A stretch of DNA of 64,000 nt from the NCBI RefSeq assembly GCF_009192745.1, contig NZ_VTFV01000002.1, forward strand, positions 186,001 through 250,000, read 5' to 3'. Of the stretch, positions 54,137-58,337 are shown piece after piece. Below the pieces are notes generated by a model. That model made no database searches. It had not been told where the DNA came from and saw only the letters and a list, made by a program, of their open reading frames with translations. The stretch is from Arthrobacter citreus. Lineage in GTDB: Bacteria > Actinomycetota > Actinomycetes > Actinomycetales > Micrococcaceae. The first letter of the stretch is position 1. Each line of letters starts with the position of its first letter. The position numbers and the translations under genes are program-made.

Positions 54137-55603
54137 ATGGAGAAAAACCTCGCCGCCTTCCTGGCCAGCTTCAACACCGCCGTCGAACTGGCCCAGCAGC
54201 AGCGTGCCGCGTCCTCGGACCGGCAGCGCCTTCGGGATGCCCTCAGCGAGCACCTCGGGCTGCCTGCCCAGGACGTGCCGATCGTGGTGGAATCGATTCC
54301 GTTCCACCGCTTTGCCGACGTGGACATTGCCATGGAACAGATAGCTGCCCAGGACCCGGAGAGTACGCTGATCGGCCTCGGCGGGGGACAGCAGCGCCAG
54401 CACCTCGGTCTGTCCGACATTGTGCAGGAGGAAGGCTACGGGTATATCCCGGTGGGCCAGCCGGACTTCGTCAACATTGCAGTCGGACCCGACAGCAGCC
54501 GGGAAGCGGTAGGCCTCGGTGTGCGGCTCTTCTCGCACGGCGGGGTCCCGGTAGCCGTCCTGCAGAGAAAGGGTGATCCGCAGACCGGCAGTCCCGACGT
54601 GCAGCTGGCCGTCATGGCGGCCGAGCGTCCCGCCGCGGCTGCTGTCCTGGCAGCCGTCCAGGAGCACCTGAGGGTCCACAGCATCCTGCGGGGCCAGGTT
54701 ATCTCGCTTGGCTTCGATCCCTACGGGCCCGGCGGTGCAGGCGTGAATTTCCTGCAGCGACCCTCGCTCCCGAGGGACAAGGTGATCCTGCCCGACGGCG
54801 TCCTCGAGAGGGTCCGCAGCCACGTCCTGGGTATCGCCGGGCACCGGGGACGCCTGCAGGCCGCCGGCCAGCACCTCAAACGCGGAGTCCTGCTCTACGG
54901 CCCGCCCGGGACAGGGAAAACGCACACCGTCCGGCACCTGCTCAGTGAGAGTCCGGGCACGACGGCGGTCCTGCTCACCGGCGCTGCGCTCGGCGCCATC
55001 TCGCAGGCGGCGAGCCTCGCCCGCGCCATGGCTCCGTCCCTGGTGGTCCTGGAGGACATCGACCTTGTTGCCGAAGACCGGAGCATGGGCCACGGTCCAC
55101 AGCCCCTGCTTTTCCAGGTGCTCGATGCCCTGGACGGTCTCGATGCCGACGCAGACATTGCGTTCATCATGACCACCAACCGGGTGGACATCCTGGAGCC
55201 CGCCCTGGCCCAGCGCCCCGGACGCGTGGACCTCGCCGTCGAAATCCCGCTGCCCGGTTCGGCGGACCGCGTCCGGCTCATGGAGCTCTACGCTCCCGCC
55301 GGCGTGTTCTCCCCGGGCGCCCTCGCTGCGGTGGCGGAACAGGCGGACGGGGCGACGGCGTCGTTCGCCCGGGAACTGGTGCGCCGTGCCATCCTCGCGG
55401 CAGCCGAAGCCGGAGAGGGTCCGGCCGACGGGCACCTTCTCGCGGCCGCGGCGGACCTGTCCGGGCAGCGCGAAGCCATGACCCGCTCACTGCTGGGCGG
55501 AACGGACCCATCCGCCGGTTTCACTGCGAACGGTGCGGGGCCTTCGCACGGCGTGCCCGCGCCCGGGCCCGGGATCGGCTGGGAGTACGGCCCGCTGAGA
55601 TGA
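54137..55603 (+). CDS. AAA+ ATPase
   Basis: 488 residues. Residues 1-200 are a unique N-terminal domain. A single AAA module follows: Walker A YGPPGTGKT (254-262), Walker B LVVLEDIDLV (302-311), sensor 1 MTTN and an arginine-finger region ALAQRPGRVD, with ATPase C-domain beyond. It resembles a CDC48/FtsH-type AAA without the protease. Fourteen bases after the acyl-CoA dehydrogenase gene and one base before the reading frame of the sigma-factor gene, so likely cotranscribed. Function unknown. Confidence 0.85.
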   Translation: MEKNLAAFLASFNTAVELAQQQRAASSDRQRLRDALSEHLGLPAQDVPIVVESIPFHRFADVDIAMEQIAAQDPESTLIGLGGGQQRQHLGLSDIVQEEGYGYIPVGQPDFVNIAVGPDSSREAVGLGVRLFSHGGVPVAVLQRKGDPQTGSPDVQLAVMAAERPAAAAVLAAVQEHLRVHSILRGQVISLGFDPYGPGGAGVNFLQRPSLPRDKVILPDGVLERVRSHVLGIAGHRGRLQAAGQHLKRGVLLYGPPGTGKTHTVRHLLSESPGTTAVLLTGAALGAISQAASLARAMAPSLVVLEDIDLVAEDRSMGHGPQPLLFQVLDALDGLDADADIAFIMTTNRVDILEPALAQRPGRVDLAVEIPLPGSADRVRLMELYAPAGVFSPGALAAVAEQADGATASFARELVRRAILAAAEAGEGPADGHLLAAAADLSGQREAMTRSLLGGTDPSAGFTANGAGPSHGVPAPGPGIGWEYGPLR

Positions 55604-55604
55604 C

Positions 55605-56144
55605 GTGATGGCGACGGCGGGGGTGCCCACCTCACAAAACACCGCTGCCGCGCGTTTACAGTATGTGGAAGTGAAACCGTTCGAAGCGATCGTCAGGGAA
55701 CACGGAGCTGTGGTGCTGCGCGTCTGCCGCGCTGTCCTGGGACCGGACGACGCCGAGGACGCGTGGTCGGAGACGTTCCTCGCGGCGCTGCGCGCGTACC
55801 CCTCGCTGCCCCCGGGCGCGAACGTGCAGGCCTGGCTGGTGACGATCGCCAAACGCAAAGCGATTGACGTGCACCGGGCGGCTGCGCGCCGTCCGGTCCT
55901 GGTGCCCGAGCTGCCCGACCAGGCCGGCGCCGAGACGGCCGGCCCCGGGCAGCATGATGGGTTGTGGGCGGCACTCCGGACCCTGCCGCAGCGCCAGCGC
56001 GAAACCCTGGCCTACCATCACTTGGCCGGACTGCCCTTCGCGGAAGTCGCCGTCCTCCTGGACAGCACGGAAGCTGCGTGCCGGCGGGCAGCAGCAGACG
56101 GCATAAAGAAACTTCGAACCCTGGAAACGGAGGAACTGCGATGA
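55605..56144 (+). CDS. ECF-type RNA polymerase sigma factor
   Basis: Up to 179 residues. Sigma region 2 covers 25-95 (CRAVLGPDDAEDAWSETFLA, and the -10-contact helix WLVTIAKRKAIDVHRAAARR); region 4 covers 118-172 (LRTLPQRQRETLAYHHLAGL, ACRRAAADGIKKLR). No region 1 or 3, as in ECF factors. The start is uncertain: GTG 55605 or a later GTG 55665, which would begin just before region 2. Its TGA overlaps the ATG of ogt (ATGA); alkB and alkA follow in the same way. A classical zinc anti-sigma gene is not present. Confidence 0.88.
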   Translation: MMATAGVPTSQNTAAARLQYVEVKPFEAIVREHGAVVLRVCRAVLGPDDAEDAWSETFLAALRAYPSLPPGANVQAWLVTIAKRKAIDVHRAAARRPVLVPELPDQAGAETAGPGQHDGLWAALRTLPQRQRETLAYHHLAGLPFAEVAVLLDSTEAACRRAAADGIKKLRTLETEELR

Positions 56145-56740
56145 CGCCGGACACCCTGGCCGGACTCAGCACCGGTGAAGACGCAGCCCTTGCCCGCCTG
56201 CACACCCGGCTCACAAGTGCAGCGCAGGAGCAGGACCTGCTGGACGTCGCCTACACCGTGATGCCCTCACCGGTGGGTGAGCTGCTGCTCGCCGCGACCC
56301 CGGCCGGCCTGGTGCGGGTCGGGTTTGGAATTGAAGGGCACGACGCCGTGCTGGCGCAGCTGGCGCTGCGGGTGAGCCCGCGGATCCTGGAAGCGCCGGA
56401 ACGCCTGGCCGAACCGGTCCGGCAGCTGGAGGAGTATTTCGCCGGGACGCGCAAGGTGTTCGACCTGGCGCTCGACTTCCGGCTGGCCACCGGGTTCCGG
56501 CGCACCGTCGTCGAGCATCTGCCGGATATAGGTTACGGTTCCACCGCCAGCTATGCGGCCCTCGCTGCCCTTGCCGGGAGCCCCGGGGCCGTCCGCGCGG
56601 CCGGCACGGCATGCGCCCGGAATCCGCTTCCGGTGGTGGTGCCCTGCCACCGCGTAGTCCGCTCGGACGGGAAGATCGGCAACTACCTGGGCGGCACCCA
56701 AGCCAAAGCCGCCCTTCTGGCGATGGAGGCTGCAGCATGA
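56141..56740 (+). CDS. ogt: Methylated-DNA--protein-cysteine methyltransferase with N-terminal extension
   Basis: 199 residues. Active-site PCHRVV with Cys169 (takes the methyl group from O6-methylguanine), the DNA-binding helix YGSTASYAALAALAGSPGAV and GTACARNPLPVVVP before it. The first 37 residues (to the VAYTVMPSPVGELLLAAT opening of the domain) have no counterpart in E. coli Ogt. GGAGG precedes the ATG. It overlaps the sigma-factor stop by 4 bp and alkB by 4 bp. The extension might serve regulation; that is a guess. Confidence 0.93.
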   Translation: MTPDTLAGLSTGEDAALARLHTRLTSAAQEQDLLDVAYTVMPSPVGELLLAATPAGLVRVGFGIEGHDAVLAQLALRVSPRILEAPERLAEPVRQLEEYFAGTRKVFDLALDFRLATGFRRTVVEHLPDIGYGSTASYAALAALAGSPGAVRAAGTACARNPLPVVVPCHRVVRSDGKIGNYLGGTQAKAALLAMEAAA

Positions 56741-57423
56741 CCGGAGCGCTGTTCCCCCGCGAACGCTCCGCACCCTCAGCAGGGGCTGTGCACGTACCCG
56801 GCTGGCTGGAACCGTCCCGCCAGCGCGAGATCGTCGAAGCGTGCCGGGCCTGGGCCGTGGGGCCGGTCCCCATGCGCTCCGCGGTGCTGCCCGGCGGGCA
56901 CAGGATGTCCGTGCAGACGGTCTGCCTCGGCTGGCACTGGCAGCCCTACAAATACACGCGAACAGCCAACGACGCCGGCGGCGGCCGGGTCGCCGACGTC
57001 CCCGGCTGGCTGATCGAACTGGGCCGTGATGCCGTCCGCGCCGCGTACTTCGCAGAAGGGGAAGCAGGCTACGCGCCGGACATCATCGCCCCGGAGGATT
57101 ACACCCCCGACACTGCGCTGATCAACTTCTACGCCCACGGCGCCCACATGGGGATGCACCAGGACAAGGATGAACGCTCCAGTGCTCCGGTAGTGTCCTT
57201 CAGCATTGGCGACACCTGCATATTCCGTTTCGGGAATACACAGACGCGCACCAAGCCCTACACCGATCTTGAGCTTGTATCGGGTGACCTGTTCGTCTTT
57301 GGCGGCCACTCCCGATTCGCCTACCACGGCGTACCCAAGACCCTTCCCGGCACGGCCGATCCGGAGACCGGCCTCGAATCGGGGCGGATCAACATCACCC
57401 TGCGGATGACCGGGCTCGAGTGA
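56737..57423 (+). CDS. alkB: AlkB-type alkylated-DNA dioxygenase
   Basis: 228 residues. The Fe(II)/2-oxoglutarate enzyme removes methyl groups from 1-methyladenine and 3-methylcytosine. Iron ligands His141 and Asp143 in HQDKDE and His197 in AYHG; the 2-oxoglutarate-binding arginines are in SGRINITLRMTG (Arg217, Arg223). INFYAHGAHMGM is the usual family block. ATG overlaps the ogt stop. Third member of the alkylation-repair operon. Confidence 0.93.
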   Translation: MTGALFPRERSAPSAGAVHVPGWLEPSRQREIVEACRAWAVGPVPMRSAVLPGGHRMSVQTVCLGWHWQPYKYTRTANDAGGGRVADVPGWLIELGRDAVRAAYFAEGEAGYAPDIIAPEDYTPDTALINFYAHGAHMGMHQDKDERSSAPVVSFSIGDTCIFRFGNTQTRTKPYTDLELVSGDLFVFGGHSRFAYHGVPKTLPGTADPETGLESGRINITLRMTGLE

Positions 57424-58337
57424 CCGGGAAACCCGCGGAGCCAGCAGTGTCGAGGACCCACCTTGTGCCCGTGGCGGAGCCGTTTCCCTGGATTCCGCTG
57501 GTCCGCAGCCTCGCTGCCCATGCGGTCCCCGGGCTCGAATCCGTGCAGTTCGGCGGTACGGCCGCCTCGGTCTCCCGCCTGCTTCCGGCGCCAGGGGGCA
57601 CGATGCTGGGAAGCCCGGTGCTGGTGGAGGTCGCCTTTGGCGCGCCGGGCAGTGTGACGGTCCGGTTTGCCGGCGGGGAGCCGGCGGACGACGATGCGGT
57701 GCTGGCCCGGCTGCGCAGGTGGCTGGACCTGGATGCCCCGGCCGCCGCCGTCGACAGCTTCCTCTCGGGGTTTCCTCTCCTGGCTCCGCTGGTGTCGGCG
57801 CGGCCGGGACTTCGGATCCCCGGAACCGTGGACGCGTGGGAAACGGCCGTGCTGACCGTGCTGGGACAGCAGGTTTCGCTGGCTGCGGCACGGACCTTCG
57901 GCTCCCGGCTGGTTGCGGAATTTGGCACACCCGGGCCTGGGGGTTTCCGGCTCTTTCCGTCGCCGCAGCGCCTGGCCGGGACCGGGGCGGACGAACTGCA
58001 GTCCGCCGTGCGGATCACCGGTTCCCGGGCAAGGACCATCCAGGCATTGGCAGCAGCAGTGGACGGCGGGCTCGAACTGGCAGGGACCGGTGCCGGTACC
58101 CGTGCCGACCTCCTCGCCCTGCCGGGAATAGGCCCGTGGACGGTGGATTACCTGGCGGTGCGGGCCGCCGGGGACCGGGACGCGTTCGTTCCCGGCGACC
58201 TGGTGCTGCGTCGGGCACTCGGCGTCGGAACCCCGCGTCAGGCCGCTGAACTCTCGGAACCGTGGCGGCCCTGGCGTGCCTACGCGCTATTTCATCTCTG
58301 GACCGCTGCGGCCTACGACGCCCCCGCACCCGCATAG
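57420..58337 (+). CDS. alkA: DNA-3-methyladenine glycosylase II, AlkA-like
   Basis: 305 residues. HhH motif LLALPGIGPWTVDYLAVRAA with the likely catalytic Asp260 in FVPGDL, the order seen in AlkA. An N-terminal AlkA_N-type domain (about 20-120) precedes it, as in Ada-AlkA proteins but without Ada. GTG overlaps the alkB stop (GTGA). The GC-rich tail continues to a stop at 58337. It removes 3-methyladenine and related bases. Last gene of the operon. Confidence 0.92.
   Translation: MTGKPAEPAVSRTHLVPVAEPFPWIPLVRSLAAHAVPGLESVQFGGTAASVSRLLPAPGGTMLGSPVLVEVAFGAPGSVTVRFAGGEPADDDAVLARLRRWLDLDAPAAAVDSFLSGFPLLAPLVSARPGLRIPGTVDAWETAVLTVLGQQVSLAAARTFGSRLVAEFGTPGPGGFRLFPSPQRLAGTGADELQSAVRITGSRARTIQALAAAVDGGLELAGTGAGTRADLLALPGIGPWTVDYLAVRAAGDRDAFVPGDLVLRRALGVGTPRQAAELSEPWRPWRAYALFHLWTAAAYDAPAPA

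Follow-up and report, generated by a model that had tools for sequence, protein, structure and literature searches.

A conserved pairing of an ECF sigma factor with an N-terminally extended Ogt in Actinobacteria, and its possible role in an Ada-independent alkylation response

We analyzed a 64,000-nucleotide stretch of the Arthrobacter citreus genome (contig NZ_VTFV01000002.1, positions 186,001 to 250,000; hereafter the window), in which four genes on the forward strand encode an extracytoplasmic function (ECF) sigma factor, an O6-alkylguanine-DNA alkyltransferase of the Ogt type (here OgtX), AlkB and AlkA. An earlier note made from this DNA had described the genes as joined stop-to-start, and re-reading of the coordinates gave three 4-nt overlaps, all on the same (+) strand: the sigma stop codon (56142-56144) overlaps the ogtX ATG at 56141, the ogtX stop codon (56738-56740) overlaps the alkB ATG at 56737, and the alkB stop codon (57421-57423) overlaps the alkA GTG at 57420. 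The four gene identities given in that note also held in Pfam and NCBIfam searches. A single promoter-like element precedes this four-gene operon, which may place the three repair genes under one regulator. The features are as follows.

55631..55659, + strand: promoter-like element CTCAC-N17-CGTTTAC, the proposed target of the sigma factor itself, conserved at spacer 17 upstream of sigma
55665..56144, + strand: ECF sigma factor with regions 2 and 4 (PF04542/PF08281), proposed leaderless GTG start
56141..56740, + strand: ogtX, O6-alkylguanine-DNA alkyltransferase with an N-terminal extension (PF02870 and PF01035), proposed sensor/regulator
56141..56248, + strand: OgtX N-terminal extension, residues 1-36, conserved RLxxRLxxxA...LLD, running on into VAY at 36-38
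56645..56647, + strand: codon of the acceptor Cys169 (PCHR), invariant in 137/137 linked Ogts
56737..57423, + strand: alkB, 2-oxoglutarate/Fe(II) DNA dealkylase (PF13532)
57420..58337, + strand: alkA, 3-methyladenine DNA glycosylase II (PF06029, AlkA_N, and PF00730, HhH-GPD)

Linkage of sigma with ogtX and the upstream promoter element

Numbered from 55605, the sigma open reading frame (ORF) has 179 amino acids and matched PF04542 at residues 29-96 and PF08281 at residues 120-170, which is the ECF architecture with regions 2 and 4 only. The DAED core-binding motif was kept in the alignment. The window genome holds no close paralogue (next best match, 38.9 bits), and among named relatives the A. 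koreensis sigma reached 87% over the window sigma. Homologues were collected from 120 family genomes (60 positive at E 1e-12, one of which, G033, has a different sigma), 296 phylum genomes (53 at 1e-25) and 394 class genomes (52 at 1e-30); a further 80 named genome loci were the highest-ranking among at least 492 confirmed ones. G033 was rejected as a member of the system, its match being a different sigma (83 bits, no ogt). A profile search of all fetched loci gave 261 loci with a sigma above 60 bits, including same-species copies from two collections and the window's own genome. An ogt was present in 259; one lacked a detected start codon, leaving 258 pairs, 230 of them distinct, and 228 distinct sigmas.

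The earlier note had called for a survey of actinobacterial genomes for sigma-ogt adjacency. In 259 of the 261 loci, an Ogt gene on the same strand lay no more than 700 nt downstream of sigma, and 226 of the 228 distinct sigmas were directly followed by one; of the two exceptions, L088 is cut off by the end of its contig and L210 holds a different sigma. The 4-nt, ATGA-type overlap between sigma and ogtX recurred in 183 of the 230 distinct pairs, a genetic coupling of the kind seen for anti-sigma factors. The genes that follow varied. Among the 79 named loci with an ogt, alkB followed in 25 and alkA in 18, a short ogt preceded in 32, and 49 had at least 3 kb downstream yet neither an alkB nor an alkA resembling those of the window. 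Because of these 49 loci, we regard sigma-ogtX as the core and the repair genes as variable cargo. In L092, L100 and L112 the next long ORF appeared, by eye, unrelated to repair. The richest operon read, in G071, begins with a short ogt, sigma and ogtX. These are followed by an oxygenase of PF09859 ('oxidative methylation of damaged DNA'), a small protein in which part of an Ada metal-binding domain is recognised, a 175-aa protein of unknown function and then alkB (assigned by similarity), tag and alkA. No natural sigma-OgtX gene fusion occurred in 137 loci; only in L082 and L090 were the two genes in frame, with a stop between them in both. Sigma relatives (E up to 1e-15) were also seen on three actinobacterial plasmid records among 72,556 (NZ_CP110616.1, NZ_LR134464.1 and NZ_AP024649.1).

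In the roughly 700 nt upstream of sigma, CTCAC-N17-CGTYTAC was present with a spacer of exactly 17 in 128 of 139 loci (138 fetched loci and the window, not de-duplicated) and in 124 of 134 de-duplicated upstream regions, whereas every other spacer from 8 to 30 occurred in 0-3 loci. A conserved element thus precedes the sigma factor's own operon, as is expected of an autoregulated ECF sigma. At loci with a short ogt abutting sigma, the element lies ahead of that ogt instead. Among the 11 loci with no exact match, one had a spacer of 18, in two (L013 and L098) the element lay 702 nt away, in front of a short ogt, and the remaining eight had one-mismatch versions, some plausible (CGAC, or TTCAC beside the start) and others indistinguishable from chance.

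The position of this element bears on the sigma start codon. The earlier note had placed the start at 55605, which we judge to be wrong because the conserved element at 55631-55659 would then lie inside the coding sequence. In relatives, the first 20 or so codons of the 55605 ORF seem to be conserved as DNA rather than as protein, and in distant relatives protein-level conservation begins around the GTG at 55665; strings such as TSQ...RLQ in some relatives arise because the DNA element occupies that stretch. An in-frame ATG or GTG followed the -10-like heptamer by 3-8 nt in 106 of the 108 loci with the element within 110 nt, and by 5 nt in 81 of them. The sigma start is therefore probably the GTG at 55665, 5 nt past the heptamer, and the geometry there is that of a predicted leaderless promoter. 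Leaderless promoters are common in actinobacteria. In L090 (Streptosporangium subroseum), a short, stop-ended duplicate of the sigma factor's first codons lies directly before the element.

The AAA ATPase gene upstream (54137-55603) was considered as part of the operon and placed outside the system, since it had no match beside sigma either in L007 or among the 29 loci of the phylum, L036-L064. The window ogt is not the sole one in its genome; a second, short ogt lies on another contig (G000:C4:56456-56917).

The N-terminal extension of OgtX

The OgtX core matched Methyltransf_1N (from residue 37), DNA_binding_1 (PF01035) and TIGR00589, as in the Ogt/MGMT family. Cys169, which the earlier note had proposed as the methylated residue, lies in a PCHR motif and is invariant in all 137 aligned sigma-linked Ogts (132 distinct). 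OgtX is probably an active transferase, since the acceptor cysteine and the PCHR core are kept. With the Ogt/MGMT enzymes of known structure (PDB 4bhb/4bhc, methylated-DNA--protein-cysteine methyltransferase) it shares this catalytic core and acceptor cysteine, and it differs from them in an extension of about 36 residues: among 47 matched sequences of solved structures, stretches beginning before profile position 29 occurred in fusion constructs only, and outside these the best stretches began at position 29 or later.

The extension, which the earlier note had pointed out on the Ogt adjoining sigma, was found almost exclusively in such sigma-linked Ogts. A profile of residues 12-40 matched 213 of the 226 linked Ogts, a figure that is partly circular as the profile was built from linked Ogts; both controls are independent, with no match among the 63 other Ogts at these loci and a single one among 32 Ogts from sigma-less loci. 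Over the 137 linked Ogts, A28 and D35 were conserved at 99%, L24 at 92%, L20 at 85% and R23 at 82%. The one sigma-less match, in G030 (L176/L206, G030:C10), comes from a family genome that has lost the sigma by deletion, leaving its first residues, MRKPFEA, fused to the ogtX frame. There the extension is partly decayed, the part like the RLxxRL helix reading LHAPLE; a search of the fetched locus for CTCAC-N17-CGT found none, and ogtX is still followed by alkB and a tag-like gene. A partnership of sigma and OgtX is, in our view, the best reading of this distribution, because the extension is nearly confined to sigma-linked Ogts and has partly decayed where the sigma was lost.

Three divergent linked Ogts (L333, L334 and L359) carry another N-terminal block, PPxLxxxDVSYVxEDTAxG-like, where the others have the RLxxRL helix; this block may represent another kind of partner domain.

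Off-operon motif sites and the relation to Ada

We searched for CTCACR-N16-CGTYTWC in 38 sigma-positive genomes (37 matched) and 34 more from the class (28 matched); the control was 61 family genomes counted as sigma-negative, in which 16 matched with 24 sites, 20 of them read. In the first set, 19 of the 23 off-operon sites outside the G071 cluster and G214 were read (all except G058:C6, G078:C105, G023:C12 and G051:C18); in the class set, all 35 non-operon sites and the divergent G214 site were read, and the G071 cluster sites were read in L209. Sites lay directly before an alkylation-repair gene in 4 of 19 and 5 of 36 cases (9/55) in sigma-positive genomes, as compared with 0 of 20 in sigma-negative ones, and far above a chance rate of about 1e-4 per site under assumed gene numbers. 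The gene was a short ogt in G028, G069, G045, G484, G214 and G557, in the last two of which it lies next to the operon in divergent orientation; it was the PF09859 oxygenase in G192, G576 and G662. Taken with the promoter element, these sites make it very probable that the sigma transcribes itself and an alkylation-repair regulon.

The motif also preceded a short-chain dehydrogenase gene in three genomes (L361, L365 and L366; Pfam was run on L365 only), twice near the sigma-ogtX operon and once elsewhere, and a similar gene follows ogtX in L091 and L138; the enzyme is a possible detoxification member of the regulon. SnoaL-like small proteins lay behind the motif in two distant genomes, G071 (L209 618-1064, - strand) and G767 (L385 332-754).

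To our knowledge, how alkylation repair is induced in bacteria without Ada is largely open. The absence of Ada reported in the earlier note was borne out for the window genome, which gave no match to Ada_Zn_binding (PF02805) in a search that was positive in 6 of 14 reference genomes. The wider idea of that note, a dedicated sigma running an alkylation-repair operon without Ada, is supported by the conserved motif before sigma, the off-operon sites in relatives and the near-invariant adjacency. The absence of Ada proved not to be a rule. Among the 120 family genomes, 7 had both the sigma and Ada, 53 the sigma only, 35 Ada only and 25 neither (p 1e-7 at species level); across 32 genera the corresponding numbers, counted by hand, were 6, 14, 7 and 5, which is not significant (p 0.15). 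Replacement of Ada was therefore rejected as a rule, the anticorrelation failing at genus level and some genomes having both, and was kept for the window genome only. In the G071 operon, the small protein with partial PF02805 is encoded at L209 3854-4363 (- strand), and a weak similar match lies downstream of ogtX in L381 (G557); such a stand-alone Ada-like domain could be a second methyl sensor.

Proposed regulation of the sigma factor and comparison with known systems

The operon, the linkage, the specificity of the extension, the promoter motif and the regulon sites can be read directly from the sequences compared. On this basis, we infer that the sigma factor uses CTCAC-N17-CGTYTWC and that alkylation is the inducer. 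From a leaderless promoter, the sigma would drive the operon in which it is encoded, and in various relatives it would also serve other alkylation-repair genes. Its cognate regulator would be OgtX, to which it is coupled in translation: unmethylated OgtX would bind the sigma through the sigma-linked N-terminal extension and block its activity. Once Cys169 has accepted a methyl group, a step that this enzyme family cannot reverse, OgtX would change so that the sigma is freed. The freed sigma would drive a self-amplifying response that would end once newly made, unmethylated OgtX titrates it. An anti-sigma role for OgtX is the most economical assumption, because OgtX is a near-invariant, coupled partner with a sigma-linked domain and an irreversibly methylated cysteine.

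We assign a probability of about one half to this explanation as a whole, an Ada-independent alkylation response with OgtX as a methyl-released anti-sigma factor. Its parts differ in strength. That the sigma runs an alkylation-repair regulon can be held with high confidence, and that OgtX regulates the sigma seems reasonably likely. The polarity, in which unmethylated OgtX inhibits and methylation frees the sigma, is put forward tentatively. Slightly more tentative is the fuller picture of Ogt as a single-use anti-sigma, whose suicide methylation would be at once the repair event and the signal freeing the sigma; Actinobacteria would then have a second adaptive response that does without Ada and has a promoter code and a regulon to itself. 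Two precedents for an alkylated transferase touching transcription proteins can be cited from the available parts of the sources: alkylated human AGT binds the estrogen receptor (PMC10779285), and Ada contacts an RNA polymerase sigma factor, according to a title in the reference list of PMC4437013.

Several observations weigh against the explanation. The extension profile missed 13 of the 226 linked Ogts, of which 12 are divergent and one, L124, seems to have a scrambled frame. In a mean-field covariation analysis of 230 pairs (Meff 165), the top ten inter-protein scores were 1.44-1.21, as compared with maxima of 1.07-1.47 in five shuffles, and the top 30 included 9 extension pairs where 19% was expected, with no clear enrichment; the analysis lent no support to a direct contact. 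The contrast of 9/55 with 0/20 reaches just p = 0.05 (one-sided), and 46 of the 55 sites precede none of the repair genes searched, many lying inside long open frames; most of these are probably noise. In the window genome, 49 matches to CTCACN{8,28}CGTYTWC were found over all spacers, and the operon site alone had a spacer of 17; nor was the motif found upstream of the short ogt, so that a regulon beyond the operon was rejected for this genome. Finally, an Ada domain occurs as well in 7 of the 60 family genomes counted as sigma-positive, and the sigma system is therefore no simple replacement of Ada.

The main alternative reverses the polarity: only methylated OgtX would bind and activate the sigma holoenzyme, as methylated Ada does, and unmethylated OgtX would be inert towards the sigma. 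The linkage, coupling and extension fit this model equally. Ada is an activator when methylated, according to the part of PMC4437013 available, and with full-length models the OgtX core scored 89 bits with Ada (PRK15435) and 70.4 bits with PRK10286. However, a sigma that retains the DAED motif and is preceded by a promoter of its own would be expected to run away unless braked, and so should need a brake and not an activator; EcfP, unlike the DAED-bearing window sigma, binds RNA polymerase only once phosphorylated (PMC8999054, in the part available). Stoichiometric coupling is, moreover, the usual layout of sigma and anti-sigma genes. We consider activation by methylated OgtX decidedly unlikely.

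A second alternative, which appears unlikely, is that OgtX is a repair enzyme only, with the sigma controlled otherwise (by transcription, by proteolysis or with no specific inducer) and the extension serving folding, DNA binding or another partner. The retained acceptor cysteine and PCHR core, the lack of a contact signal in the covariation and the several anti-sigma-free modes of control described in the accessible text of the review PMC8999054 are consistent with it, but it leaves unexplained both the confinement of the extension to sigma-linked Ogts, with none among the 63 others at the same loci, and the persistence of sigma-ogtX where alkB and alkA are not nearby. It is very improbable that the sigma senses alkylation directly through its own Cys41 (55605 numbering, region 2), since Cys occupies that position in 180 of the 230 sigmas and the other 50, all equally linked to ogtX, have L (37), A (9), V (3) or a gap (1); cysteine sensing was accordingly rejected as a general mechanism. 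An ordinary constitutive repair operon with the sigma as a mere neighbour having other targets is just as improbable, given that the motif precedes sigma at one exact spacer and recurs in front of other alkylation genes in relatives, and given the near-universal linkage.

The arrangement is thus real and conserved, and the methyl-sensing switch suggested in the earlier note, here with OgtX as a methyl-released anti-sigma, is the best available hypothesis for it, strengthened by the promoter, the regulon and the sigma-linked domain now behind it. Should the transferase indeed be the switch, the DNA lesion that it repairs would use up its activity as an anti-sigma, and the sigma/promoter pair could act as an alkylation sensor.

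SigH-RshA and SigE-RseA are ECF sigma/anti-sigma pairs, and the window operon resembles them in having an autoregulated sigma with a coupled downstream partner gene; the partner here, however, is a soluble DNA repair enzyme and not a zinc anti-sigma or a membrane protein. The Ada adaptive response (ada-alkB, alkA and aidB) has the same cargo of O6-alkylguanine transferase, AlkB and AlkA, and in both systems a Cys-methylated transferase is the likely sensor. In contrast to that response, the window genome has no Ada metal-binding domain and the operon no DNA-binding regulator, the specificity factor being the sigma, and CTCAC-N17-CGTYTWC stands as the promoter in place of an Ada box.

The ECF122 group reportedly goes back to the classification of Casas-Pastor et al. 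(reference 7 of the review PMC8999054). In the part of the review PMC8999054 available, ECF122 sigmas are described as having a 6-O-methylguanine DNA methyltransferase in their neighbourhood, no cognate anti-sigma and a mechanism still uncharacterised. The link between sigma and Ogt has thus been published already; that part of the review gives neither a promoter nor a regulon, and mentions neither the extension nor a leaderless start. This review alone named ECF122 in the literature searched. Among the matches listed for sigma/anti-sigma with methyltransferase or alkylation, titles and abstract beginnings pointed to no study of such a switch; the word sigma is absent from the available text of the alkyltransferase review PMC10779285, and methylguanine, methyltransferase, DNA damage, alkyl and ECF122 are all absent from the text of the ECF review PMC8103513. 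Peroxide data from M. smegmatis (PMC4520597, in the part available) were set aside as uninformative. We found no publication giving the promoter, the regulon, the leaderless start or the specificity of the extension, though a motif may have been predicted in the primary ECF classification. The window sigma shares with ECF122 the absence of a cognate anti-sigma and the conserved neighbouring methyltransferase, seen here in 259 of 261 loci, a likeness judged by architecture and neighbourhood; the ECF122 example sequence is from Cellulomonas, a genus also among our loci (L136), and the reference sequence of the group is WP_057211282.1. The promoter, the start codon, the regulon and the partner domain described here give the question of how alkylation repair is induced without Ada a concrete, testable form in Actinobacteria.

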